Positions 4,424-25,133 of a stretch of 64,000 nucleotides of DNA are shown here, in pieces. The stretch is taken from assembly GCF_947501425.1 (NCBI RefSeq), contig NZ_CANMVN010000011.1:1-64000 (forward strand), in the 5' to 3' direction. The stretch's first letter is position 1, and each line of letters starts with the position of its first letter. Source of the DNA: an uncultured Psychroserpens sp. GTDB lineage: Bacteria > Bacteroidota > Bacteroidia > Flavobacteriales > Flavobacteriaceae. The notes under the pieces are model-generated. The model did no database searches. It was given only the letters and a program-made list of their open reading frames with translations, and had not been told where the DNA came from. The translations under genes were made by a program, and so were the position numbers.

Positions 4424-7366
4424 ATGAAATTTCGTTATTATTACTTCTTACTAATCTTGATTAGTTTAAACTTTTCTTATGCTCAGAAATCAGCACCAGT
4501 TGCTGGCGATGCAGCTGCACTAATCGATATTTTAAAAAAAGACTACAATAGTGTAAGTCCAGATAATAGAGCCGAAGAAATCATGAAAGACAGAGCTAAA
4601 GCTATGTCTATTTTTAACTCTTACATGGCTACTGATCTCGATGTAGACATCGACGACGCAAAGCTTATTTCTAAAAAAATCATTAAATCAAGTGGAGATG
4701 ACATTCTAGACATTGACAATATGAATATGGCTAATATAAACACTAATGCTGGTGTATATGATGCTAAACTAAAAGCGTATGAAGAGCAAAAAAATAAACT
4801 TCAGGATATAAAATCGCTTAATATCTCAGGAAATGGAAGTACTATAAGCACCTTAGCGAGAGAATCAAATGCATTACATATAGCCAAGTCTGAATACCTG
4901 AAAGCCAGTTATTATAAAGATGTCAAAAACTTGGTTGCCTTACGGGTTAATTATGATGATAATAATTATATCAAATACTGTATTGAATTATTCATAAAAA
5001 AGTATGCGACTTTACAAAACAATGACATTGATACGTTTGCAGCACAGAATTATCAATCGTCCATTCAAAAAAGTTTACCATTTTTAGGAGGTGATCTCGC
5101 ACTTGAGACCTTAATTGATGGTCTTAGTAGATTCCTTGCAAAACGCATCAAAGAAGAGCTAACAACTTATGTTGTAGATCAAATTAAGGATAATCTTAAT
5201 AACCCAAAGCCTTCGAGTTACCTCAATGAGTTAATGGTATTATTACCAGTTACCACTGACTATATTAAAAGTTTTGAAGCCGATCAGGTTTTAAATTTTA
5301 TTGACGAAATCAAACAATATATAGAAGGTGACTTAAATAATTTATTATCAAACGCAACACATCTTAAAAGTACACCTAGATTTCAGGCTATTCTCAAAAA
5401 ACATCCAGATTTAGATTTTGCATTCGAAGCCTTAGAGATTTATCCAAACATATCAAAAATTAAGAATCCAATAGACTATTTCGATCTCATAGGTTCAAGT
5501 CGAAACATATCTCGATGGTCTGATGTTTCAGAATCCAATAATTTAAAATTCAATTTAGCCAATGGAATTAAACTTTCAAATATGCTTGCGCATAGCTTAA
5601 CAATTACTGAGCAATCTGAAACGAGATTCGTATCAACTGACTTTATTAGTAATTATGGGTCTGAGCTTAATTTTTATTTATTATTCACTGGTTTTCTTAA
5701 TCAGCAAAACATCAAATACTACGATATAAAATTTAAAAACGGAAAAACAACTACTTCTCTGGATTTTAGTAAAATAATGGATGTAATAAGTGCAACAACC
5801 CTTGATGCTACAGAGAAAAAAGCAAGGTTTTTATTTCAGGAGATCTCTCAAATCGCTATCAATGCAGAAAAAATACATAATGACGCTTTAGCTATTAAAA
5901 AAGCAAAAAACAATAGCGATAAAGTTGACATCAAAGATGTTCATGGTCTTATAAAAGGTATTCTTGAAATGGCTCTGGAAACTGTAAAAAGTGCTGATAA
6001 AATCTTAGATACAACGCAACCATTAAAGACTTTAGCTATCACACTACCAAAATCTCTTGAGGCATATACAAGTTCTTATTTCAAAATTGCAAATACTAGT
6101 AATGATATCGTTCTGGATATTCACACCAAGAAATTTAGCAGTGCAATTATTAAAGCAATAGAGCTTCCATCCTATTTCAACTATAATGGATTTGATGCTT
6201 CAAAAATTTACAATCTTCAGCAGCAACTTCTCAATGTGCAACAGTTTAATGTCATCCGAACAGCTTTGGTTGCCACAAAGATTCCTAAAAATAAAGATGA
6301 ACGTCAAATTTTAGAAAGCAATCTATTATTTCTTAAAGCGGCTATTCAGAAAAAAAACAATGCTAATCTCAATACAATTATTACGAGTATTGATACTGCT
6401 ATTGGTTTGGTTCAAACTAATGCATCTAATAAGGCGTATAAAGCGGCCAGAGATCAGGTAGTTAGTCAGTTAAAGACAAATTTCAAGGCAGCGCTTATTG
6501 AGTTCGCCTCAATAAATATTGATAATACAATTACCACACCACTTACAACTTATCTTAACAATACTATTAGTGACCCAACAGTTAGAACACAAATATCGAA
6601 AGTAACAAATACATTTATCGAAAGTCTTTTTTCAAAGGTTATCACTTCAGATACTATTTCATTTAATGAGCTTAAGGATGATGAGCAAGTAAAGGAAGCC
6701 ACACGACAATTCAGAATGTACATCGAAGCTTATTTACCAGAATTAGTTGTAGACACCTTTAGAATTAAAGACCAGAACCTCATTAAGATCATCCATTTTA
6801 TCAATGACATAGCCATTTCAGAAAATGATGAAGACGTAGAAGCGGCGATTTCAGCGTTTGCCTTACCTTCTGGAAGTTATGCCTTAAAGAAAAAACGAGG
6901 TGATTATATTGCTATAAATTCGTTTCCAGGACTTCTTACAGGTTTTGAACAACGCTCTATTAGTGATTTAGAATTTAACACTCTAGCATTTACTGCTCCT
7001 GTAGGTATTTACACCAAATTGAGCAATAAGCACAATCTGGGATTATTTGTTCCAATTATAGACATTGCTGCTCCTGTAAGGTTTAGGTTAGATGATGATA
7101 ATACTACGAATACCTTACCTGAATTTAATTTTAAAAATATCATTGCACCTGGTCTTTATATCACTTGGTCGCCTCTTAAAGGCCCGTTCTCATTCAATTT
7201 TGGTGCGCAATATGGTCCAGAACTTGAAGTGATTGAAACCTTTACTGATCCTATGACAGGAGAAACCTCAACATCTGCAAAGACATTTGACGATTCCTTT
7301 CGAATTGGTATTGGTGTAACACTTGACATTCCTTTATTCAGCATATATAATAGACCTCGTAACTAA
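4424..7366 (+). CDS. Large exported protein of unknown function, helical with a beta-rich C-terminus
   Basis: 980 residues. A signal peptide (residues 1-20) ends NFSYAQ. Residues about 25-800 look mostly alpha-helical, rich in Lys, Asn, Ile and Leu, with many amphipathic stretches and no recognised enzyme motif. Residues about 830-975 change character: alternating hydrophobic segments such as LGLFVPIIDI, APGLYITWSP and FRIGIGVTLDIPLF suggest a small outer-membrane-type beta-barrel or sheet domain. The stop overlaps the ATG of the next gene by one base (TAATG), implying translational coupling to the protease. I do not recognise the family. Inferred role: an envelope-anchored partner or substrate carrier for the two following proteases. 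Confidence 0.75.
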   Translation: MKFRYYYFLLILISLNFSYAQKSAPVAGDAAALIDILKKDYNSVSPDNRAEEIMKDRAKAMSIFNSYMATDLDVDIDDAKLISKKIIKSSGDDILDIDNMNMANINTNAGVYDAKLKAYEEQKNKLQDIKSLNISGNGSTISTLARESNALHIAKSEYLKASYYKDVKNLVALRVNYDDNNYIKYCIELFIKKYATLQNNDIDTFAAQNYQSSIQKSLPFLGGDLALETLIDGLSRFLAKRIKEELTTYVVDQIKDNLNNPKPSSYLNELMVLLPVTTDYIKSFEADQVLNFIDEIKQYIEGDLNNLLSNATHLKSTPRFQAILKKHPDLDFAFEALEIYPNISKIKNPIDYFDLIGSSRNISRWSDVSESNNLKFNLANGIKLSNMLAHSLTITEQSETRFVSTDFISNYGSELNFYLLFTGFLNQQNIKYYDIKFKNGKTTTSLDFSKIMDVISATTLDATEKKARFLFQEISQIAINAEKIHNDALAIKKAKNNSDKVDIKDVHGLIKGILEMALETVKSADKILDTTQPLKTLAITLPKSLEAYTSSYFKIANTSNDIVLDIHTKKFSSAIIKAIELPSYFNYNGFDASKIYNLQQQLLNVQQFNVIRTALVATKIPKNKDERQILESNLLFLKAAIQKKNNANLNTIITSIDTAIGLVQTNASNKAYKAARDQVVSQLKTNFKAALIEFASINIDNTITTPLTTYLNNTISDPTVRTQISKVTNTFIESLFSKVITSDTISFNELKDDEQVKEATRQFRMYIEAYLPELVVDTFRIKDQNLIKIIHFINDIAISENDEDVEAAISAFALPSGSYALKKKRGDYIAINSFPGLLTGFEQRSISDLEFNTLAFTAPVGIYTKLSNKHNLGLFVPIIDIAAPVRFRLDDDNTTNTLPEFNFKNIIAPGLYITWSPLKGPFSFNFGAQYGPELEVIETFTDPMTGETSTSAKTFDDSFRIGIGVTLDIPLFSIYNRPRN

Positions 7367-14455: not shown

Positions 14456-14505
14456 TTATTTTAATATGAACTAAAGGTATTGAAAAATTAGTAAAATGAT
14501 ATCAT

Positions 14506-14589
14506 GCCAATGTAATTATTCATCGTGAAAGCGGTGAGATTTGGGATTGGGTGAGTTATAGAGATTTATGTAGGTTTTCAATGTTATAA
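14506..14589 (+). pseudogene. DUF2188 3'-end fragment 1
   Basis: The frame reads VIIHRESGEIWDWVSYRD and then stops at 14587-14589. This matches the C-terminus of the intact DUF2188 protein at 9836-10123 (VIIHRESGGIRDRISYK). No upstream part of the gene is left. First of three such fragments in the tandem array. Confidence 0.75.
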
Positions 14590-14779
14590 ATTAGATTTAA
14601 TCTTTTTTGCATTGATCAAAAAAGATTCAAAAAAATCTAGGCTGCACTTTTAGTTCTTGAAAACCTGTCAACAAGGTTTATCATGCGCATGGCAATCGCT
14701 GCGCTAGGCCATGCTCCTCTGCCCTCCACTTACCTTGCCTTGATGTTACTACAAACCAAAAACGGATACCACCTGTAAA

Positions 14780-14884
14780 ATGAAAGTCAAATGCTATACT
14801 ACCAATGTCATTATTCATCATGAAAGCGGTGGGATTTGGTATTGGATGAGTTATAGAGATTTATTTAGGTTGTCAATGTTATAA
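14780..14884 (+). pseudogene. DUF2188 3'-end fragment 2
   Basis: An open stretch from an ATG at 14780 reads KVKCYTTNVIIHHESGG and continues to a stop at 14882-14884. It aligns with LAKRYKADVIIHRESGG of the intact gene, so about twelve codons more survive than in fragment 1. Only 34 codons, lacking the N-terminal half of the domain. Confidence 0.75.
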
Positions 14885-15078
14885 ATTAGATTTAATCTTT
14901 TTTGCATTGATCAAAAAAGATTCAAAAAAATCTAGGCTACATTTTTAGTTCTTGAAAACCTGTCAACAAGGTTTATCATGCGCATGGCAATCGCTGCGCT
15001 AGGCCATGCTCCTCTGCCCTACACTTACCTTGCCTTGGTTTTACTACGAACCAAAACTGATGCCACCAATAAAATAAA

Positions 15079-15165
15079 ATGTATACCAAGCGCTATAACT
15101 CTGATGTCATTATTCATCGTGAAAGCGGTGGGATTTGGGATTGTATAAGTGATGGCAACGACTAG
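15079..15165 (+). pseudogene. DUF2188 3'-end fragment 3
   Basis: 28 codons from an ATG at 15079: YTKRYNSDVIIHRESGG followed by IWDCISDG and a TAG at 15163-15165. This is the closest in wording to the intact gene (AKRYKADVIIHRESGG). The tandem unit ends here; hsdR starts about 120 bases later. Confidence 0.75.
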
Positions 15166-15288: not shown

Positions 15289-18066
15289 GTGAACGAAAAA
15301 CAAACCAGAAAACAAATTATAGATAAAAATCTGCTTTCAGCGGGCTGGAATATCAGTGACCAAACTCAAGTGGTCATTGAGTCGACTTTGGGCTCTAATT
15401 CATTAAATGAACCAGAAAAAGACTACTCAATTCAATTCAATGATTATGTTCTTTTAGGCAAAGACGGTAAACCATTGGCTGTTGTTGAGGCAAAGAGAAC
15501 ATCCAAAGATGCAGAATTAGGCAGAGAGCAAGCTAAACAATACTGCCTAAATATTGAGCAAGAAACTGGAACCCTACCATTTTGTTTTTATACCAATGGA
15601 CACGAAACGTATTTCTGGGATTTAGGAAACTATCCACCAAAGAAAGTAATAGGATTCCCAACACGCGATGATTTAGAACGCTATAAATTTATTCGTAAGA
15701 ATAGAAAGAAGCTTGCACAAGAATTAATTAACGTAGACATCGCTGGTCGAGATTATCAAATACAAGCCATTCGTTCAGTAATGGAAGGCATGGAAAAGAA
15801 ACGCCAAAAGTTTCTTTTGGTTATGGCAACAGGTACAGGAAAAACGAGAACTTGTATAGCGTTAGTCGATGGACTAATGCGAGCAGGTTGGGCTGAGCGT
15901 GTCTTGTTTTTAGTAGATAGGATTGCATTACGGAATCAAGCCTTGGATGCTTTCAAAGAACATTTGCCTAACGAACCTCGTTGGCCAAAAGTTGGTGAGA
16001 AAAGTATCGCGACAGATAGACGTATTTATATATCTACCTATCCAACTATGTTGAATATTATTAGAGATGACATCGATACATTATCACCTCACTTTTTTGA
16101 TTTAATTGTTGTTGACGAATCGCATCGTTCCATATACAATACCTATCAAGAAGTACTAAATTATTTTAATACAACTACTCTAGGTTTAACGGCAACTCCA
16201 ACCGATGTTATCGACCATAATACGTTTAAGTTATTTAACTGTGATGATGGTTTACCTACGTTTGCCTATTCCTATGAAGAAGCTGTAAATAATATTCCGC
16301 CATATCTATGCAATTTTCAGGTGATGAAACTGCAAACGAAATTTCAATCTGAAGGAATTAGCAAACGGACTATAAGTCTAGAAGACCAAAAACGCCTAAT
16401 TCTTGAAGGGAAAGAAGTTGCTGAAATAAATTTTGAAGGTACGGAACTCGAAAAAGCGGTCGTCAATAAAGGTACTAATGTTACCATTGTAAAACAATTT
16501 ATGGAAGAGTGCATCAAAGACCCAAATGGTGTGCTTCCTGGTAAGACGATTTTCTTTTGTTCTACGATAAGCCATGCAAGGCGAATTGAAAAAATATTTG
16601 ACGCTTTATATCCTGAATATACTGGCGAATTAGCTAAAGTCATGGTTTCTGATGACCCAAGGGTTTATGGTAAAGGAGGCTTATTACATCAATTTACCAA
16701 TAATGATATGCCTAGAGTGGCAATAAGTGTTGATATGCTCGATACTGGTATCGATGTGCGTGAGCTAGTGAATTTGGTATTTGCAAAACCTGTCTATTCT
16801 TATACTAAGTTTTGGCAAATGATAGGGCGAGGCACTCGTCTTTTAGAGCCTGCCAAAATGAAGCCTTGGTGTCCAGAAAAAGATGTGTTTTTAATTTTAG
16901 ATTGTTGGGACAATTTTGAATATTTTAAACTCAACCCAAAAGGTAAAGAACTAAAAGCTCAAATTCCATTACCTGTACGTTATTTTGGTCTAAGACTCGA
17001 TAAAATCGAACTCGCGCTAGAACTGGATAAAAAAGATATTGCTCTTAAAGAGATTAATATACTTAATGAGCAATTAGCGACATTACCAAAGCAATCTGTA
17101 GTAATTCAAGATGCTCAATCTGATTTGGCTAAACTTAAAACCAAAGATTTTTGGAATAACTTTGGCCTAGAGCAAATTGAATTTTTACGTTATCAGATTC
17201 AACCCTTATTTAGAACTGTATCTCAATCCGATTTTAAAGCCATGCGCTTTAGAAAAGATGTTCTGGAAACATCTGTAGCACATATGACAGAAGAAGCCGA
17301 GCAATTTGATGCACTCAAAGAAAACATTAAAACCTTAGTAGAAGAACTACCTTTGTCTATCAATAGTGTTTCCAAGCATAAACCATTCATCAATAAAGTG
17401 CTGAGCAATCATTACTGGAGTGTTATTGATGATGTCGGATTTGATGAATTAGCAGATACCATTGCACCTTTAATTCATTTTAGGGAAACCAAAAAGACAG
17501 GGCAATCGTCAAGCTTTGATTTTAAGGATATCTTACTGACAAAGGAGTTTGTGGAGTTCGGTCCAGCAAATGAAGCTGTAAGCATTTCTAAGTATCGTGA
17601 AATGGTAGAACAGCGCATCAATGAATTGACAAAACGGAATCCTATTCTACAAAAACTTAAAGTAGGACAAAGCATTACAATCGAGGAAGCAGAGCTATTG
17701 GCAGAAGAGCTCTACGAAGAAGATCCTCACATTACTGAAACCTTATTACGCAAGGTTTACAATCATCAAAAGGCAACCTTAGTACAATTTGTAAAACATG
17801 TTTTAGGTATTGAAATTCTGGAACGATTTGATGATCAAGTGAGTAAAGCCGTGCAGCAATTTATTGCAGAACACAATACTTTAAGCACACATCAAATTGA
17901 GTTTTTGCATTTACTACGAGATTACATTATAGAAAAAGGTACTATTGAAAAGCGTAATTTAATAGAAGCGCCTTTTACTATCATTCACCCAAAAGGGATA
18001 CGTGGTGTATTTTCACCAAATGATATCAAGGAAATATTAGTGCTAACTAAAAAAATTGTCGCATAA
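15289..18066 (+). CDS. hsdR: Type I restriction enzyme R subunit
   Basis: 925 residues, starting at a GTG. Residues 1-140 form the N-terminal nuclease: a PD-(D/E)XK-like core with VVEAKR (Glu67, Lys69) and a downstream QAKQY. The superfamily 2 helicase motor follows: Walker A TGTGKT (181-186), DESH (276-279), GLTATP, and IGRGTRLL for motif VI. The C-terminal helical region (about 600-925) binds the methylase core in this family (EcoEI/EcoKI-type R C-terminus). HsdR translocates DNA and cleaves when HsdS-HsdM finds unmethylated sites. First gene of a seven-gene co-oriented operon; the next ORF starts two bases after its stop. No frameshift or lost motif seen. Confidence 0.95.
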   Translation: MNEKQTRKQIIDKNLLSAGWNISDQTQVVIESTLGSNSLNEPEKDYSIQFNDYVLLGKDGKPLAVVEAKRTSKDAELGREQAKQYCLNIEQETGTLPFCFYTNGHETYFWDLGNYPPKKVIGFPTRDDLERYKFIRKNRKKLAQELINVDIAGRDYQIQAIRSVMEGMEKKRQKFLLVMATGTGKTRTCIALVDGLMRAGWAERVLFLVDRIALRNQALDAFKEHLPNEPRWPKVGEKSIATDRRIYISTYPTMLNIIRDDIDTLSPHFFDLIVVDESHRSIYNTYQEVLNYFNTTTLGLTATPTDVIDHNTFKLFNCDDGLPTFAYSYEEAVNNIPPYLCNFQVMKLQTKFQSEGISKRTISLEDQKRLILEGKEVAEINFEGTELEKAVVNKGTNVTIVKQFMEECIKDPNGVLPGKTIFFCSTISHARRIEKIFDALYPEYTGELAKVMVSDDPRVYGKGGLLHQFTNNDMPRVAISVDMLDTGIDVRELVNLVFAKPVYSYTKFWQMIGRGTRLLEPAKMKPWCPEKDVFLILDCWDNFEYFKLNPKGKELKAQIPLPVRYFGLRLDKIELALELDKKDIALKEINILNEQLATLPKQSVVIQDAQSDLAKLKTKDFWNNFGLEQIEFLRYQIQPLFRTVSQSDFKAMRFRKDVLETSVAHMTEEAEQFDALKENIKTLVEELPLSINSVSKHKPFINKVLSNHYWSVIDDVGFDELADTIAPLIHFRETKKTGQSSSFDFKDILLTKEFVEFGPANEAVSISKYREMVEQRINELTKRNPILQKLKVGQSITIEEAELLAEELYEEDPHITETLLRKVYNHQKATLVQFVKHVLGIEILERFDDQVSKAVQQFIAEHNTLSTHQIEFLHLLRDYIIEKGTIEKRNLIEAPFTIIHPKGIRGVFSPNDIKEILVLTKKIVA

Positions 18067-18068
18067 TT

Positions 18069-18446
18069 ATGATAAAAGATATCAGATACAAATTGATTGA
18101 ACTTGCAAGACAAAAAACGACTTGGACATATTCTCAATTAAATGAGCAATTAGAACTTGGGCTAAATTTCAATAATGTTTTAGATAGAGATTTAATTGGT
18201 GAATGGTTAGGTGAAGTTTCAGTTCATGAATATAGTAAAGGAAGACCTTTGCTTAGTGCCTTAATTACTCATAAACTTGGAAAGCGAGAACAAGGTGATG
18301 GCTTTTATAAACTTTGTGAGAATTTGTTAGGCAAAGATTGGGAAGATTTAAAGGCAGATAAAAACTGGGAGAATAAAATGATAGCAGACTGCTATACATT
18401 TTGGTTAGAACTAGATAATTATAAAAAGTATAAAAACGATTACTAA
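18069..18446 (+). CDS. Small protein between hsdR and hsdM
   Basis: 125 residues, soluble. Residues 1-35 look like a small winged-helix or HTH (ARQKTTWTYSQLNEQLELG). The middle carries the striking VHEYSKGRPLLSALITHK, followed by GDGFYKLCENLLG, and the C-terminus is charged and aromatic. I recall similar small proteins with a GRPLLSALV segment beside restriction or nuclease genes, but cannot name the family. It lies two bases after hsdR and nine bases before hsdM, so it is surely co-transcribed. Possible roles: control protein, assembly factor or a DNA-binding accessory (inference). Confidence 0.8.
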   Translation: MIKDIRYKLIELARQKTTWTYSQLNEQLELGLNFNNVLDRDLIGEWLGEVSVHEYSKGRPLLSALITHKLGKREQGDGFYKLCENLLGKDWEDLKADKNWENKMIADCYTFWLELDNYKKYKNDY

Positions 18447-18455
18447 ACTATTACA

Positions 18456-20090
18456 ATGAGCTTAATAAGCAGTAACCCACAAATAGCATCAAAAATTAAT
18501 GACCTCTGGAACAAATTCTGGTCTGGTGGTATATCTAATCCACTGACAGCCATAGAGCAGATTACCTATCTGCTTTTTATGAAAAAGCTAGATGAGAATG
18601 ATTTGAAGAAGCAATCTGATGCTGAATTTACCGGTGATGATTATGTTTCAATATTTCACGGTGTATTCTATGCAACAAAGCAAGACGAAGAAAAGCAACA
18701 AAATGGTGTTGATAAACAAAGTTTAAGATGGAGTTCATTCATACGTAAACCAGCAGATGAAATGCTGCAACATGTTCAACGATTTGTATTTCCTTTTATA
18801 CAGAGATTAGATTCAAATGAGTCTCCATTTGTTAAGCATATGGCGAATGCTGTATTCATAATCCCTAAACCGTCTCTACTTGTTGAAGCCGTAAAAAGTA
18901 TAGATAGTATTTTCAAAGAAATGGAAAAGGATGCTCAGGAAAAAGGGCACGATTTCCAAGACATACAAGGTGATGTCTATGAAATGCTACTAAGCGAAAT
19001 CGCTTCTGCTGGTAAAAATGGACAATTCCGTACACCTAGACATATCATCAAATTGTTGGTAGATATGGTAAATCCGCAATTAGGGCAACGCATTGTAGAC
19101 CCAGCTTGTGGTACAGGTGGATTTTTGTTAGGAGCCTATCATCATTTAATTACCAATTTAAATAAGGACAACTCTAATGTAGAACCCGATGAAGATGGGT
19201 TTAGATTAACGGGAAGAAGTTCTAAACTTACAGAAGACGTTAAGGAAATTCTCGGTAAAAGTTTGCAGGGTTATGACATTGACCAAACCATGGTGCGTTT
19301 AGGTTTAATGAACCTCATGATGCATGGTATAGACAGCCCACAAATAGACTATAAGGACACCTTGAGTAAAAGCTATCACGAAACCAGTGAATATGATGTG
19401 GTGTTGGCAAATCCACCTTTTACAGGTAATATAGACAAAGGAGACATTAATGAAGAACTCACCTTAAGGACCACTAAAACCGAACTATTGTTTATAGAGC
19501 GTATTTACAACATGCTAAAAATGGGAGGAACAGCAGGTATTGTAATCCCTCAAGGTGTGTTGTTTGGTTCTGGTCGTGCCTTTGTAGACGCACGAAAAAT
19601 AATGATAGAAAAATCACAGTTAAAGGCTGTGGTCACTTTGCCGAGTGGCGTTTTTAAACCGTATGCAGGTGTAAGTACAGCTATTTTAATATTTACCAAA
19701 GGTGGTGAAACCGACAAGGTGTGGTTTTACGATATGGAAAGTGATGGCTACACTCTAGATGATAAGCGTAACAAACTGACAACAAAAGATAATAAGAATG
19801 ATTTTGGAGACATCCAAGACATACTTATTAAGTATAAAAGTAAAAAACCGGATAGCGAAAACGACCGAAAGCGCAAATACTTTACCGTGCTTAAAAAGGA
19901 AATTGTAGATGAAAAATACGATTTAAGTTTTTCGCGCTATAAGGAAGAAGTTTTTGAGGAAATAGAATATGAAAAATCAGAGGTGATTTTAGCCAAGCTA
20001 TTAGGAGGTAAAGACGAAAACGATAATGAAATAAAAGGTTTGGAAAAAGAGATTTCTGAAAAGTTAAAGGAGTTAAAAGAGTTGTTTTAA
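18456..20090 (+). CDS. hsdM: Type I restriction-modification DNA methyltransferase M subunit
   Basis: 544 residues, typical for HsdM. An N-terminal helical domain (to about 150) with ISNPLTAIEQITYLLFMKKL precedes the N6-adenine methylase domain. The SAM-binding motif I is DPACGTGGF (215-223) and the catalytic motif IV is NPPF (319-322). A charged C-terminal region follows from about 450 and contacts HsdS in this family. It methylates adenine in the site chosen by HsdS and supplies the core of the restriction complex. The stop overlaps the hsdS ATG (TAATG), a classic coupling for M and S stoichiometry. Confidence 0.95.
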   Translation: MSLISSNPQIASKINDLWNKFWSGGISNPLTAIEQITYLLFMKKLDENDLKKQSDAEFTGDDYVSIFHGVFYATKQDEEKQQNGVDKQSLRWSSFIRKPADEMLQHVQRFVFPFIQRLDSNESPFVKHMANAVFIIPKPSLLVEAVKSIDSIFKEMEKDAQEKGHDFQDIQGDVYEMLLSEIASAGKNGQFRTPRHIIKLLVDMVNPQLGQRIVDPACGTGGFLLGAYHHLITNLNKDNSNVEPDEDGFRLTGRSSKLTEDVKEILGKSLQGYDIDQTMVRLGLMNLMMHGIDSPQIDYKDTLSKSYHETSEYDVVLANPPFTGNIDKGDINEELTLRTTKTELLFIERIYNMLKMGGTAGIVIPQGVLFGSGRAFVDARKIMIEKSQLKAVVTLPSGVFKPYAGVSTAILIFTKGGETDKVWFYDMESDGYTLDDKRNKLTTKDNKNDFGDIQDILIKYKSKKPDSENDRKRKYFTVLKKEIVDEKYDLSFSRYKEEVFEEIEYEKSEVILAKLLGGKDENDNEIKGLEKEISEKLKELKELF

Positions 20091-21607
20091 TGGCTGAATT
20101 TAATTGGAAAAAGGTTGAAGACTTTGCTGATGTAATCACCGGTGGAACACCATCAAGAAGAGTAAAGGAGTATTGGGATGATGGAACAATTCCTTGGTTG
20201 AATTCAGGTGAACTTAATCAAGACATCATTACCTACACACGTAATTATATAACAGAAAAAGGTCTTAAAAATAGTTCTGCGAGACTTATGCCAGCTGATA
20301 GTGTGCTTATTGCATTAACTGGCAGTACAACAGGGAAAAGCGCATACTTAACATTTGAGGCTTGCGCAAATCAGTCAGTAACAGGTATTTTACCTTCAGT
20401 TAACCACGACTCTCAATATTTATATCAATTTTTCAAAACTCAAAAGGAGGCTATTTTTAGAAAAGCTTGGGGAGGAGCACAACCGCATATCAGTCAGAAG
20501 TTTGTGAAGGAATATAAAGTTCCTTTACCATCTCTGGATGAACAAAAACGCATTGCCAAGGTATTAAGTGATTGTGAAGCTTTAATAGCCAAACGTAAAG
20601 AAAGTATTGCACTTTTAGATGAGCTCTTAAAATCTACTTTTTTAGAGATGTTTGGGGATCCTGTTAGGAATGAAAAGGGTTGGGATTTAAAAACTATAGA
20701 AGAATTTTCTAAAAAGGAAAAGCATTCAATTAAAAGAGGTCCATTTGGAGGAGCTTTAAAAAAGGAAATATTTGTTAATGATGGATACTTGGTGTATGAA
20801 CAATATCATGCATTAAATAATGACTTTACCTTTGCTAGATATTATATAGATGAAAAAAAATATAAAGAGTTAGAGGCTTTTTCTATTAAGCCTGGTGATA
20901 TTATTATTAGTTGTTCTGGAGTAAATTTGGGTAGGTTAGCGATAATTCCTGACAATTCTAAAAAAGGTATAATTAATCAAGCCTTACTTAAAGTTACTCT
21001 TAATCAAAAATTAATGTCAAACATCATGTTTGTACATATATTCACTAATCCACATTTTAAACAAAAGTTTTTTGGAAATGTTCGAGGAAGCGGTGTTCCA
21101 AATTTTCCACCAATGTCTTCCTTTAAGAGATTTAAATTTATTTGTCCACCAAAAGAACTTCAAAATAAATTTGTCGGAATAGTCGATAAAATTGAAAACA
21201 TCAAACATCTCTACCAAACCCATTTACAAGAATTAGAAAACTTATACGGTAGTTTAAGCCAAAAAGCTTTTAAAGGAGAGCTGGATGTGAGTAAGGTAGA
21301 TATTTTTAATTATCCTGATAAATCACAATCTACGAATTATACAACTACAGTAAAAGAAACACAAGATAATCATACAAGCAAGCTGGACTCATTGAATGTT
21401 GAAATGATTTTAGATAAAATCATAAAAAACGATATTAAAAAAGAACTATTTGGTTTAAATGAAATTGAAGAAATCTTAAGGCTGAAAAAAATCAATATTA
21501 ATAATAGCTTAATAAAAGATTTTTTAAGAAAATCTATGTCAGATAATTCAATAGAACAAAAATATAGTGGAGAAACTCGTTCTGTACTATTTAAAATCAA
21601 GAAATGA
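20090..21607 (+). CDS. hsdS: Type I restriction specificity subunit S with C-terminal extension
   Basis: 505 residues; most HsdS proteins have about 400-450. Two target recognition domains are visible: TRD1 at about 1-150 (PWLNSGELNQ near the start and GGAQPHISQKFVKEYKVPLP at its end) and TRD2 at about 195-370 (GSGVPNFPPMSS). Each is followed by a long helix of the spacer type (LDEQKRIAKVLSDCEALIAKR and its second copy near 375-395 ending LSQKAFKGEL). After the normal end at about 400 there is an extra hundred residues, Ser/Thr-rich then helical (EEILRLKKI...IKDFLRKS), resembling a small winged helix. Overlaps hsdM by one base and the ATPase gene by four (ATGA). Confidence 0.93.
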   Translation: MAEFNWKKVEDFADVITGGTPSRRVKEYWDDGTIPWLNSGELNQDIITYTRNYITEKGLKNSSARLMPADSVLIALTGSTTGKSAYLTFEACANQSVTGILPSVNHDSQYLYQFFKTQKEAIFRKAWGGAQPHISQKFVKEYKVPLPSLDEQKRIAKVLSDCEALIAKRKESIALLDELLKSTFLEMFGDPVRNEKGWDLKTIEEFSKKEKHSIKRGPFGGALKKEIFVNDGYLVYEQYHALNNDFTFARYYIDEKKYKELEAFSIKPGDIIISCSGVNLGRLAIIPDNSKKGIINQALLKVTLNQKLMSNIMFVHIFTNPHFKQKFFGNVRGSGVPNFPPMSSFKRFKFICPPKELQNKFVGIVDKIENIKHLYQTHLQELENLYGSLSQKAFKGELDVSKVDIFNYPDKSQSTNYTTTVKETQDNHTSKLDSLNVEMILDKIIKNDIKKELFGLNEIEEILRLKKININNSLIKDFLRKSMSDNSIEQKYSGETRSVLFKIKK

Positions 21608-23241
21608 AATTAAAGAAGTTAAAACTACTTTCTAAATTTAGAGGCCTTCCAAAGGGTTACGAAATTAATTTTTCTAATCATAAGAATGACGAATTAGCCA
21701 TTAACCCAATTTGTTTTATTGGGCTAAATGGATCAGGCAAATCCAATTTATTAGAGTTAATATCAGAAGTATTCTATTACTTAGAAAACTTCAATAGAGC
21801 TTCGACAAAAGAATTAGGAAGGTTAAAAACTAGTTTTGGATTTGAAATAGAATATTCGCAATCAAAAATTACATTGTACGAGAATGGTTTTTACTTATCA
21901 GATTTGGCTAAAGAATTAATCGATGATAAAGATGTCATAAAAATAGTATCAATTAATAAGAAACCCGATGAATTACCAGAGTTTAAAGTAAGCTTTGATG
22001 CCAATAAGAGAAAAATTAAATTAGAAGACGAGGCACAAATTTTTGCAGTATTACCTAGGTATGTTTTAGGATATTCATCAGGTATGAATGAACTATTGAG
22101 CAATCCATTTATAAAAATGGATTTCGATTACCTTAAAGAAATAAACCAAAAAACAACTGAAGCCAAAAGATCTACACTCGAAATAAACAGATTGTTTTAT
22201 CTTAATTATAATTCAAGTAAATTGGTGACTATTTGTAACTTAATTTTTGACCTTGAAAATATTAAATCTTTTAAGGACGAATTGCAAATCAAAAAACTAA
22301 ATTCATTTTCAATTAATATTAAACAAGAGAAAACAAAAGACAATAGAGATTATTTCCCTTCAGAATTAAATTTAGCAATTAATACCTTTCAGAGTCTAGA
22401 CCCTTTTTTTGACAAAAAAGAAAAGACAAGTCTAAAGTATAAAGATATAGTAGAATATCATTTCAATTTCACCTTGAATAGTGCTGTAATTGAAGGTTTT
22501 AAGAATGAGTTTAAGACACCCATTAATCTGTTTAGAATCCTATATAATTTCCAGATTTTAAACCTTGATTTAGTTGGAAGAAAAACAGTAAATAGAATTA
22601 AAAACACATCTGCAAAATCTAAAAATAATTTATCAGATTTAATTCCAAAAAAAGAAAAGGATCAATTAGTTTTCTCGATAGACAGTATAGCCTTAAAAAA
22701 AGAAAAAGTAAAGGATTCTGTTTATTTTAAACAATTGTCTGATGGTGAACATCAAATGCTTCAGGTCCTTGGCAGTATAGCTCTATTTAACAACAAGAGT
22801 ACTTTATTTTTATTAGATGAACCTACTACACATTTTAATCCAGAATGGCGTTCTAAATTTATTTATTTAATGAATCAAAGTGTTGGTGAAGATGAACGAG
22901 AACAAGAGGTTTTACTTACTACCCACTCACCATTTATTGTGTCAGACTCTAAAAAAGAGAATGTAATAAGAACAATTAATGGCAATAAAAAAACATTCGA
23001 ATATCCATCGGAAGAAACTTATGGAGCATCAGTAAGAATTTTATTAAGTAAATTATTCAATCAAAAGAAAAGTATAGGTGAGTTTTCATACGGTGACTTG
23101 TTCAAGCTCTATGAAAAGGTAAATTCTATTAAAAATGAAGAAGATATACAATTTATAAAAGATGAATCCTTAAAGTTTGGTGATTCCCCTGAAAAAATAA
23201 TGCTATTCCATTTGCTTTCTCAAAAAATAAAATCTTTTTAG
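21604..23241 (+). CDS. Restriction-associated AAA ATPase, Septu PtuA-like
   Basis: 545 residues, SMC/ABC-type ATPase. Walker A is GLNGSGKS (40-47), the signature-like LSDGEHQ is near 378, Walker B is LFLLDEPTT near 400-409, and the H-loop is TTHSP near 438. The long insert between Walker A and the signature is helical, as in OLD, RloC and PtuA ATPases. NCBI has a family for restriction system-associated AAA ATPases which this gene probably fits. It is read through from hsdS by a four-base overlap and ends three bases before an HNH nuclease gene. The ATPase plus HNH pairing is the layout of Septu defence (PtuA/PtuB). Probable role: sensing phage or restriction failure and triggering the nuclease (inference). 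Confidence 0.85.
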   Translation: MKLKKLKLLSKFRGLPKGYEINFSNHKNDELAINPICFIGLNGSGKSNLLELISEVFYYLENFNRASTKELGRLKTSFGFEIEYSQSKITLYENGFYLSDLAKELIDDKDVIKIVSINKKPDELPEFKVSFDANKRKIKLEDEAQIFAVLPRYVLGYSSGMNELLSNPFIKMDFDYLKEINQKTTEAKRSTLEINRLFYLNYNSSKLVTICNLIFDLENIKSFKDELQIKKLNSFSINIKQEKTKDNRDYFPSELNLAINTFQSLDPFFDKKEKTSLKYKDIVEYHFNFTLNSAVIEGFKNEFKTPINLFRILYNFQILNLDLVGRKTVNRIKNTSAKSKNNLSDLIPKKEKDQLVFSIDSIALKKEKVKDSVYFKQLSDGEHQMLQVLGSIALFNNKSTLFLLDEPTTHFNPEWRSKFIYLMNQSVGEDEREQEVLLTTHSPFIVSDSKKENVIRTINGNKKTFEYPSEETYGASVRILLSKLFNQKKSIGEFSYGDLFKLYEKVNSIKNEEDIQFIKDESLKFGDSPEKIMLFHLLSQKIKSF

Positions 23242-23244
23242 TTT

Positions 23245-24288
23245 ATGAGGCAACAATTTGTTTTCAAATCATCAAAATTAGATGATTTAAATAATCAATT
23301 AATATTTTTCTTTGAAGCTATTTACTTTCAAAGCTTAACTGCAGATGTTGCTTGGAATGATAATTTTATCCACTATAAATTAAAACCAATTTATGATAAG
23401 TGTACTAAATTAAGAACTCTTTTAAAAGCAGTTCATTCAAACTTTGTACTTTCTTCAAGTAATAACAAATTAAAAGTATATAATGCTGCATTAAATAGCT
23501 CAAATATAGAAGCTATTTGTAATACAACTATTAATAGTTTAAACAAGAAAGACTTAAGCCAGAACGTTGGAAATGCAATACATGATTTATATAAATACAT
23601 GTATTATCAACTTCCTCAAACAAAGATATTTAAAAGTATTTATGGAGAGTTAATAGACCATTATAAGGCTTTAAAAAACGCCACGAGAATTAAAATGTGT
23701 CCTTTTTGCGGTTTAGAGCCAATAAAACCACTTAAATCAAAGGTTAAACAAACGTATGATCATTACTTAGCTCTATCTGAATACCCATTTCATGGCATTT
23801 GTACAAAAAATTATGTGCCTACGTGTAGGACTTGCAATGAAGACTATAAGCATAGCAAAGATTCACATTATTTAAACCCGCAAAGAACAATTAGAAGAAA
23901 ACTATTTTATCCATACGGAACATATAATTACCAAGTAACTTTAAATCTTCTAAATATAAGTTTGGATAACACTAATTTAAAAATAAATAATTGTAATGTT
24001 TCTGTTAATTGCAGTGATTCAACTTTACAGAACGAAGTTAATTCCTGGATAGATATTTATGAAATAAATACACGATACAAAAATATAATTGAAGATGATT
24101 CTGATAATTGGTATGTGGAATTTTTTGATTTTCTAACACTAAAAGTAAATGATGGAACCTATGTGAGCACACCTCTTACATATAATGATTATTTAGATTC
24201 ATTATCTGTTCAGGAGTCTACCAATAATTCTTTTTTGAAAAAGTCATATTTTGAAAATATTAGACCGTTAACCACAGTTTTTAATTAA
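23245..24288 (+). CDS. HNH-type endonuclease, PtuB-like partner of the ATPase
   Basis: 347 residues. The N-terminal 140 residues are helical and unassigned. A zinc-bracketed HNH core follows: Cys152-x-x-Cys155 (CPFCG), Asp172-His173 (YDHYLALSEYPFHG), Asn189, and Cys194-x-x-Cys197-Asn198 (CRTCNEDYK). These are the elements of the beta-beta-alpha-metal nuclease fold. The C-terminal 130 residues have no recognised motif. It follows the AAA ATPase gene by three bases, as PtuB follows PtuA in Septu, and precedes a GIY-YIG nuclease gene by two bases. The region is visibly more A+T-rich than hsdR/hsdM, which may mark it as a separately acquired module. Confidence 0.82.
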   Translation: MRQQFVFKSSKLDDLNNQLIFFFEAIYFQSLTADVAWNDNFIHYKLKPIYDKCTKLRTLLKAVHSNFVLSSSNNKLKVYNAALNSSNIEAICNTTINSLNKKDLSQNVGNAIHDLYKYMYYQLPQTKIFKSIYGELIDHYKALKNATRIKMCPFCGLEPIKPLKSKVKQTYDHYLALSEYPFHGICTKNYVPTCRTCNEDYKHSKDSHYLNPQRTIRRKLFYPYGTYNYQVTLNLLNISLDNTNLKINNCNVSVNCSDSTLQNEVNSWIDIYEINTRYKNIIEDDSDNWYVEFFDFLTLKVNDGTYVSTPLTYNDYLDSLSVQESTNNSFLKKSYFENIRPLTTVFN

Positions 24289-24290
24289 CT

Positions 24291-25133
24291 ATGACCGTAA
24301 AACCACAAACCATACAAATATTTTTACCAGACGGTTCACCAACCAGTATTCGTGAAGCTGAGTTAACTAACCGATTAGTCAAAGCAATATTATTTCCAAG
24401 AAATAAAATGCAAGAAGCCGCCAAACGTGAGTTGGTAAATTTTACTGGAGTATATTTTTTATTTGGCACTAATGAAGATAGTACAAAATCAAAAGTCTAT
24501 ATCGGTGAAGGTGAAGATTGTTTTAAACGCATCCAATCTCACAATCGTAATAAAGATTTTTGGACACATTGCATTATTATATCCACAAAAACGGACGAGT
24601 ACACCAAAACAGATGGGAAATATTTAGAACACCATTGTCTTCATAAAGCTCAAGAAATAGGTCGATATGAAATTGATAATGATACGGGATCTAAAAAACC
24701 TTCAATTTCAGAAAGTAGAGAATACGATTTACTAGATAATTTTGAAACAGCTAAAATTTTATTGGCAACCCTTGGTTACCCTATTTTTGAGGAAAAACGA
24801 AAGGCGAAAAGCAACAAAGAAATCTTTTACTGTAAAAGCAAAGATGCTGAAGCACAAGGAGAACTCATCGATGATGGTTTTCTGGTTCATCAGGGTGGGA
24901 AATGTAAAATTAATGAAGCTAAAGGTCTTGGTACTTGGGTTTCTAGATTAAGAAAGCAGTTATTAGAAGATTCAATTTTAAAAGAAGAAAATGGAGCCTA
25001 TGTTTTTCAATCAGATTATATATTTAATTCATTAAGTGCTGCTGCTGCAACTATCCTCGCGAGATCTGCTAATGGTTGGACATCTTGGAAAGATAAAAAT
25101 GGAAAAACCTTAGATGAGTTAAAAAGAAAATAA
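24291..25133 (+). CDS. GIY-YIG nuclease with C-terminal DUF4357
   Basis: 280 residues. The GIY-YIG core lies at about 50-150: GVYFLFG (Gly53-Val54-Tyr55), VYIGEGEDCFKRI (Tyr70-Ile71-Gly72, Arg80) and the probable catalytic Glu in KYLEHHC near 114. The C-terminal part fits DUF4357, ending NGWTSWKDKNGKTLDELK. Proteins of this build often neighbour type I restriction loci. It is the last gene of the defence operon, two bases after the HNH gene; the next gene is convergent. A third nuclease in one operon (HsdR, HNH, GIY-YIG) is notable. Whether it acts with HsdR or as an independent effector is unknown. Confidence 0.88.
   Translation: MTVKPQTIQIFLPDGSPTSIREAELTNRLVKAILFPRNKMQEAAKRELVNFTGVYFLFGTNEDSTKSKVYIGEGEDCFKRIQSHNRNKDFWTHCIIISTKTDEYTKTDGKYLEHHCLHKAQEIGRYEIDNDTGSKKPSISESREYDLLDNFETAKILLATLGYPIFEEKRKAKSNKEIFYCKSKDAEAQGELIDDGFLVHQGGKCKINEAKGLGTWVSRLRKQLLEDSILKEENGAYVFQSDYIFNSLSAAAATILARSANGWTSWKDKNGKTLDELKRK

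Follow-up and report, generated by a model that had tools for sequence, protein, structure and literature searches.

A predicted winged-helix tail of HsdS accompanies TIGR04435-type ATPase-HNH pairs in type I restriction loci

The window analyzed here, a stretch of 64,000 nucleotides from an uncultured Psychroserpens sp. (contig NZ_CANMVN010000011.1, positions 1 to 64,000 of the forward strand), harbors at positions 15289-25133 seven open reading frames (ORFs) on the plus strand, in the order hsdR, orf125, hsdM, hsdS, ATPase, HNH, and GIY-YIG. On balance, the sequence comparisons lean towards a type I restriction system carrying an added PtuAB (Septu)-like ATPase-HNH effector, which would be held on HsdMS via a C-terminal tail of HsdS. 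The link of this ATPase family to restriction was already known from the family name; the HsdS tail and the cassette of hsdM, hsdS, ATPase, and HNH genes appear to be new. Successive genes of the operon are spaced by 2, 9, -1, -4, 3, and 2 bases, and the coordinates and spacings agree with the tight one-strand layout described in an earlier note on this DNA, here called the original prediction. The features are as follows:

15289 to 18066, plus strand: hsdR, 925 amino acids, EcoEI/EcoAI-like (type IB-like) restriction and translocation subunit
18069 to 18446, plus strand: orf125, 125 amino acids, no family match
18456 to 20090, plus strand: hsdM, 544 amino acids, N6-adenine methyltransferase subunit (Pfam and PADLOC)
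20090 to 21607, plus strand: hsdS, 505 amino acids, specificity subunit with its body at about residues 1-400 (Pfam Methylase_S)
21278 to 21604, plus strand: C-terminal tail of HsdS (about residues 397-505), a linker followed by a predicted winged helix (helices and strands at about 21389-21604)
21604 to 23241, plus strand: ABC/AAA-type ATPase, TIGR04435, PtuA-like, 545 amino acids (NCBIfam, PADLOC)
23245 to 24288, plus strand: HNH-type nuclease partner, PtuB-like, 347 amino acids (PADLOC models, invariant columns)
24291 to 25133, plus strand: GIY-YIG/DUF4357 protein, PDC-S14, 280 amino acids, facultative neighbor

The operon co-encodes HsdM, an HsdR comprising nuclease and translocase domains, and an HsdS comprising two target-recognition domains; by this gene content it specifies a type I restriction-modification system with predicted sequence-specific methylation and cleavage activity. 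HsdM and HsdS form the DNA-recognizing methyltransferase core of type I enzymes. HsdR matched Pfam ResIII, EcoEI_R_C, and HSDR_N as well as PADLOC REase_I (539 bits); with the NCBIfam equivalog EcoAI/FtnUII it reached 267 bits, below the cut-off of 550. HsdM matched Pfam N6_Mtase (205 bits) and HsdM_N, and PADLOC MTase_I (547 bits). Pfam Methylase_S was found in two stretches of HsdS, and several full-length PADLOC Specificity_I models stop at residues 396-410.

The ATPase exceeded the curated cut-off of NCBIfam TIGR04435 (369 bits; cut-off 300). It also matched the PADLOC PtuA1 model PDLC00293 over residues 1-491 with 195 bits, a model for which no curated cut-off is given there, and PDC-M62A more weakly with 68 bits. 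The columns of Walker A, the LSDGEHQ signature, and Walker B showed no variation among 12 relatives. The HNH protein had no Pfam match; it is labeled as such because C-x2-C, D-H, N, C-x2-C-N, and K columns are invariant or nearly so and because PADLOC models PDC-M62B and PDC-M01B match. Residues C152, C155, D172, H173, N189, C197, N198, and K202 were invariant among 12 relatives. Thus, the catalytic columns of both the ATPase and the HNH nuclease are kept in alignments of 12 relatives. PtuB models gave no match to the HNH protein of the window at E ≤ 0.001 in PADLOC; the PtuB1 model was matched by 10 of its 12 relatives. A structure model of the HNH protein built from 10 sequences was only moderate (mean pLDDT, the predicted local distance difference test, of 78), and its search against the PDB gave no match (the best of 43 hits at E ≤ 10 had an E of 1.8) and no information about the fold. 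A sequence profile of the HNH relatives likewise yielded nothing convincing in the PDB.

Cassette loci were picked by the TIGR04435 ATPase alone, giving 37 loci, i.e. the window and 36 others. These came from seven other genomes above the cut-off in a sample of 395 genomes of the phylum, 15 others (one scoring below the cut-off) among 397 sampled genomes of the same family, four plasmids (Priestia, Hymenobacter, Kovacikia, Sphingobium), at least six named genomes (Pedobacter, Ramlibacter, Stutzerimonas, Chryseobacterium, Niabella, Flavobacterium), and four contigs of a viral collection. Genes were called by comparing the ORFs with the proteins of the window and its relatives. Loci L104 and L109, with weak ATPase matches (21-27% identity) and no hsd genes found nearby, were dropped before counting. 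The 37 do not include L052-L057, which score below the TIGR04435 cut-off, but do include L175, with an ATPase score of 253 bits that is likewise below it.

HsdM, HsdS, and an HNH gene immediately after the ATPase were each found in all 37 loci. The tie between the ATPase-HNH pair and type I genes proposed earlier thus held in all 36 other TIGR04435 loci, each with flanking hsdM and hsdS. Reading frames usually overlap or nearly touch. The order was mostly M-S-ATPase-HNH, with S-ATPase-HNH-M in Chryseobacterium and Flavobacterium. Since the order M-S-ATPase-HNH repeats in loci of Bacteroidota, Pseudomonadota, Bacillota, and Cyanobacteriota, the core arrangement is not due to chance. The original prediction had named a separate occurrence of hsd genes and pair as counter-evidence; this was seen in no TIGR04435 locus, but it was seen for related PDC-M62-like pairs, two of which (L052, L053) had no hsd gene found nearby.

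Such pairs bring up the explanation that an ordinary Septu-like ATPase-HNH pair merely travels downstream of hsdS as a loose neighbor within a defense island. Besides L052 and L053, it can draw on further ATPase-HNH pairs located beside type I genes, namely pairs or members matching PtuA/PtuB (L054-L057) and PDC-M62 pairs (L208, L226), some of them with a short HsdS. We consider this explanation improbable for the TIGR04435 ATPases, the linkage of which is complete in 37 loci, with gene overlaps, and extends across phyla; moreover, an HsdS tail that is absent from control proteins and diverges together with the ATPase is not predicted by it.

HsdS proteins of cassette loci had a median length of 515 amino acids (n = 35) as compared to 417 amino acids for control HsdS (n = 39; Mann-Whitney p = 1e-10). 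The 35 exclude L090 and L102, in which HsdS is split or decayed. The 39 control proteins came from 33 stretches of the cassette-bearing genomes that carry other type I loci and from four additional loci; this set contains one duplicate (L119 and L216 are the same gene), two fragments of less than 200 amino acids, and one protein of 858 amino acids. For recognition of the tail, a leave-one-out profile of the last 95 residues was used, from which the tested row and all rows at least 45% identical to the tested tail were removed. With this profile, 30 of the 35 cassette HsdS scored above all controls (best control in any run, 10.5 bits), and the tail was recognized in none of the 39 control HsdS; the two other control proteins longer than 498 amino acids and that of L211 also had no tail by profile. 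A profile of all 35 tails was run against the ORFs of the 37 cassette loci, 37 control loci, and four others. It matched only cassette HsdS ORFs, and it also found the HsdS of L090 and L102, both absent from its building set.

The HsdS of L208, L226, and L054-L057 did not match the tail profile. The HsdS of L054 (7708-9255; 515 amino acids) and L056 (11112-12785; 557 amino acids) nevertheless have long C-terminal ends that look winged-helix-like by eye, and both loci carry PtuA/PtuB-like pairs with no HsdR found. Adaptor tails may have more than one origin.

The tail is predicted to be a winged helix on a linker. An AlphaFold2 model showed a disordered linker followed by the order H-H-H-E-E, in which the pLDDT is about 86-91 beyond the first 40 residues of a fragment of 105. 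Top Foldseek matches were winged-helix proteins (F93, PadR-like, CodY, FurB, LmrR) with a probability near 1 and a best E of 0.025; a PDB search with the tail profile gave only chance-level matches (best E 0.049).

Pairwise distances were compared across 35 cassette loci, and partial correlations were calculated. Distances between tails correlated with those of the ATPase (r = 0.74), HNH (0.65), HsdM (0.48), and the rest of HsdS (0.35). The partial correlation of the tail with the ATPase was 0.65 given HsdM; it was -0.06 with HsdM and 0.03 with the HsdS body when the ATPase was given. The preceding segment, HsdS residues 306-380, behaved in the opposite way (ATPase given HsdM, -0.03; HsdM given ATPase, 0.48). 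Among 23 representatives with less than 60% ATPase identity, the respective values were 0.46 and 0.05 for the tail, and -0.02 and 0.43 for residues 306-380. Because the tail and the segment before it show opposite partial correlations, HsdS seems to consist of two evolutionary units, a body following HsdM and a tail following the ATPase.

These data also bear on the possibility that the tail is a DNA- or HsdM-binding extension independent of the ATPase, its association with the cassette being an accident of descent within these type I families. The best Foldseek matches are indeed DNA-binding winged helices (F93, PadR, FurB, CodY). However, with the ATPase accounted for, nothing remained of the correlation of the tail with HsdM or with the HsdS body, and control HsdS of the same genomes, including R-M-S loci of related types, lack it; hence, we regard such an extension as unlikely.

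HsdR was found in only some of the cassette loci, i.e. in 23 of the 37 (split in two pieces in L107). Three were unscorable, L047 owing to a contig edge, L100, which is preceded by an IS66 transposase, and L102, which is decayed. No HsdR was found within the 5-10 kb flank of the remaining 11 (L050, L051, L088, L089, L101, L103, L167, L169, L170, L171, L172), as judged by phmmer with five HsdR queries and by Pfam on 17 large neighboring ORFs; the calls refer to this flank only. In Pfam scans, the products of large ORFs near these loci were of types such as TonB receptors, peptidases, and lectin-like, RHS, TPR, patatin, and RecJ proteins. Two neighboring helicases are not HsdR by Pfam: a ResIII helicase encoded on the opposite strand at about 5.5 kb from the cassette of L103, and a Schlafen-type helicase encoded upstream of that of L088. 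In a quick maximum-likelihood tree with 35 ATPases, 33 of them labeled, presence and absence of HsdR changed at least six times; the sister ATPases of L167 and L168 come from loci without and with HsdR, respectively. Since HsdM and HsdS occur in all 37 loci and HsdR varies in this way, the ATPase-HNH module is tied to the HsdM-HsdS core and not strictly to HsdR.

Several observations weigh against an effector docked by the HsdS tail. Five of the 35 tails were missed by the profile (L088, L089, L098, L101, L170), and the tail of the window, when left out, scored only 12.7 bits as compared to 7.2 bits for the best control. When ten loci, either further or repeated ones, were scanned later, a 106-amino-acid ORF of L055 that is not HsdS (17202-17522) matched the tail profile (E 0.0015), hence the domain may extend beyond HsdS; this ORF is a possible free-standing relative of the tail adaptor. 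The tail model was built on 10 sequences only 9-18% identical to that of the window, Foldseek gave no match for it at E ≤ 0.001, and a winged helix could bind DNA rather than the ATPase. The partial correlation of tail and ATPase fell to 0.30 in the 552 pairs with less than 50% ATPase identity, and their shared divergence may stem from adjacency, or from recombination as one block, without protein contact. The GC content in the window, 25-27% for tail, ATPase, and HNH as compared to 36% for hsdR and hsdM, speaks for the proposal, but HsdS residues 201-396 are already GC-poor (28%), so low GC is no marker of the tail boundary. Finally, an HsdR encoded elsewhere in the genome could serve the loci without one, and further type I loci are present in most of these genomes.

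In the mechanism we propose, HsdM-HsdS would act as the DNA-recognizing methyltransferase core, and the winged-helix tail of HsdS would dock the PtuA-like ABC ATPase with its HNH partner on HsdMS, as suggested by the restriction of the tail to cassette loci and by the shared divergence. The trigger would be an encounter of HsdMS with foreign unmethylated DNA or its blockage by a phage protein. The ATPase may then release or activate the HNH nuclease under ATP-dependent control, and the nuclease might cut the invading DNA or, like some PtuAB pairs, tRNA. HsdR, where present, would work alongside. Because no HsdR was found near 11 loci, the module can probably act with HsdMS alone. The same 11 loci bear on the original prediction that the extra nucleases act when the type I enzyme is inhibited: inhibition of HsdR is not a general trigger, and inhibition of HsdMS may still be one.

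As to the trigger, direct recruitment of the module as a second restriction arm, for and against which we see about equal grounds, is favored over a guard function, which is tenable at a lower probability. As a guard, the ATPase-HNH module would stay silent on the type I enzyme, as PrrC does, until binding of a phage anti-restriction protein frees it to kill or stall the cell. The gene for PrrC is embedded among type I genes, and the type I enzyme sequesters PrrC until T4 infection sets it free (PMC3874165). Furthermore, the PtuAB of retron-Eco7 targets tRNA-Tyr, as PrrC targets tRNA-Lys (PMC11555353), a Septu system works by tRNA-Tyr cleavage (PMC13096335), and a BREX review connects PARIS-like modules with anti-restriction proteins (PMC12839542). 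The P0005 protein also matches models of the PARIS ATPase AriA, and the HsdS tail would hold such a module. However, the AriA match is weak and partial, and with no HsdR found in 11 of the 34 scorable loci, guarding of HsdR cannot be general.

The family name of TIGR04435, restriction system-associated AAA family ATPase, records the link to restriction but is silent on the HNH partner, the HsdS tail, and the HsdR-less loci; a full-text literature search for this name returned no paper. Septu is similar in that the ATPase matches PtuA1 and is directly followed by the HNH protein. A Septu system that cleaves tRNA-Tyr requires both Walker and HNH residues (PMC13096335). In contrast to Septu, the HNH protein of the window is longer and nearer to PDC-M62B/M01B, and the cassette always occurs in type I loci, with no free-standing copy among the 37. 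With a PtuA match and no PtuB match, the pair was not assigned to Septu. PADLOC PDC-M62 (ATPase-HNH) and PDC-S14 (GIY-YIG/DUF4357) are matched by the HNH and GIY proteins of the window, respectively; the TIGR04435 ATPase, however, is nearer to PtuA1 than to PDC-M62A, and the PDC-M62 pairs of L208 and L226 adjoin hsdRMS with an HsdS that, unlike that of the cassette, is not hit by the tail profile. The methylation-associated defense system MADS was considered as well, since its MAD2, MAD5, and MAD3 resemble the methyltransferase, S subunit, and AAA ATPase, respectively; it was rejected, the scores being far below the NCBIfam cut-offs (132, 66, and 21 bits; cut-offs 720, 400, and 420).

PrrC carries an anticodon nuclease as its effector domain. 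No PrrC family was present among the Pfam and NCBIfam matches shown for the ATPase or among the best 25 of its 54 PADLOC rows. Like the cassette, EcoprrI encodes an ABC-type ATPase effector within a type I operon (PMC3874165, PMC11555353), and PrrC sets a precedent for the retention of such an effector by the type I enzyme itself (PMC3874165). The cassette differs in having two proteins, one of them HNH, in its position after hsdS instead of before hsdM, and in the frequent absence of HsdR. Pairs of ABC ATPase and nuclease in restriction-modification-like systems have been noted in general (PMC12839542). A literature search of limited depth, by which absence is unproven, found no published account of an HsdS winged-helix tail, PtuAB pairs in type I loci, or the cassette.

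The two remaining genes of the operon are not constant partners. The GIY protein reached 84.6 bits with DUF4357 (cut-off 38.4), 28.4 bits with RAMA, below the cut-off of 35.2, and 360 bits with PADLOC PDC-S14. No Pfam GIY-YIG model was matched at E ≤ 0.001; the label is used because plasmid homologues with about 29-41% identity are so annotated and the motif was read by eye. Relatives were found in four of the 37 cassette loci (the window, L168, L175, and, 26% identical, L091), in a different position in each. In 26 further GIY loci, the gene was labeled in 23; four of these (L119, L120, L125, L131) had at least two hsd genes within 9 kb, and two (L116, L126) had a single weak or distant one. 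PDC-S14 GIY-YIG/DUF4357 genes also lie between hsdS and hsdR on plasmids of Alteromonas and Acinetobacter (L096, 4286-11290; L097, 4188-10834). By these matches and positions, PDC-S14 is a recurring but facultative neighbor of type I genes.

At the limits applied, searches of Pfam, NCBIfam, PADLOC, and PHROGs gave no family match for the protein encoded by orf125, and among the 37 cassette loci the gene occurs in the window alone. Three other genomes of the 395, which belong to a single genus from the same class, contain relatives with about 37-41% identity, and a Citricoccus plasmid carries a more distant relative; by phmmer, no hsd genes were found near any of these. No relative was detected when viral contigs were scanned with a profile. 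By sequence similarity, orf125 is a member of a family without a name. In the cassette locus L045, a Schlafen AlbA_2-domain protein (4924-6432) occupies the same slot between hsdR and hsdM. The seven genes had been proposed to form one composite defense unit; as GIY-YIG and orf125 are present in only four and one of the 37 loci and also occur elsewhere alone, this unit was rejected.

Just upstream of hsdR, at 14490-15056, a non-coding repeat of 272 bp was observed in two direct copies, 93% identical and 295 bp apart; a further, partial copy occupies 15075-15153. Within the window, its core motif is confined to the two full copies, each of which contains a promoter-like site at a frequency not above chance expectation.

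Somewhat less probable than not is the further reading of an unrecognized restriction class, in which the HsdMS core would serve as the recognition unit for a PtuAB-like effector docked by the HsdS tail and could restrict without HsdR. As a physical hypothesis, the tie between a toxic ATPase-nuclease and a DNA-recognition enzyme would be a small, exchangeable adaptor with which the specificity subunit ends. If so, the use of HsdMS as a recognition platform would not be confined to HsdR, it would be wrong for this group to call HsdR-less loci solitary methyltransferases, and the targeting or triggering of Septu-like nucleases would become accessible through the tail alone.

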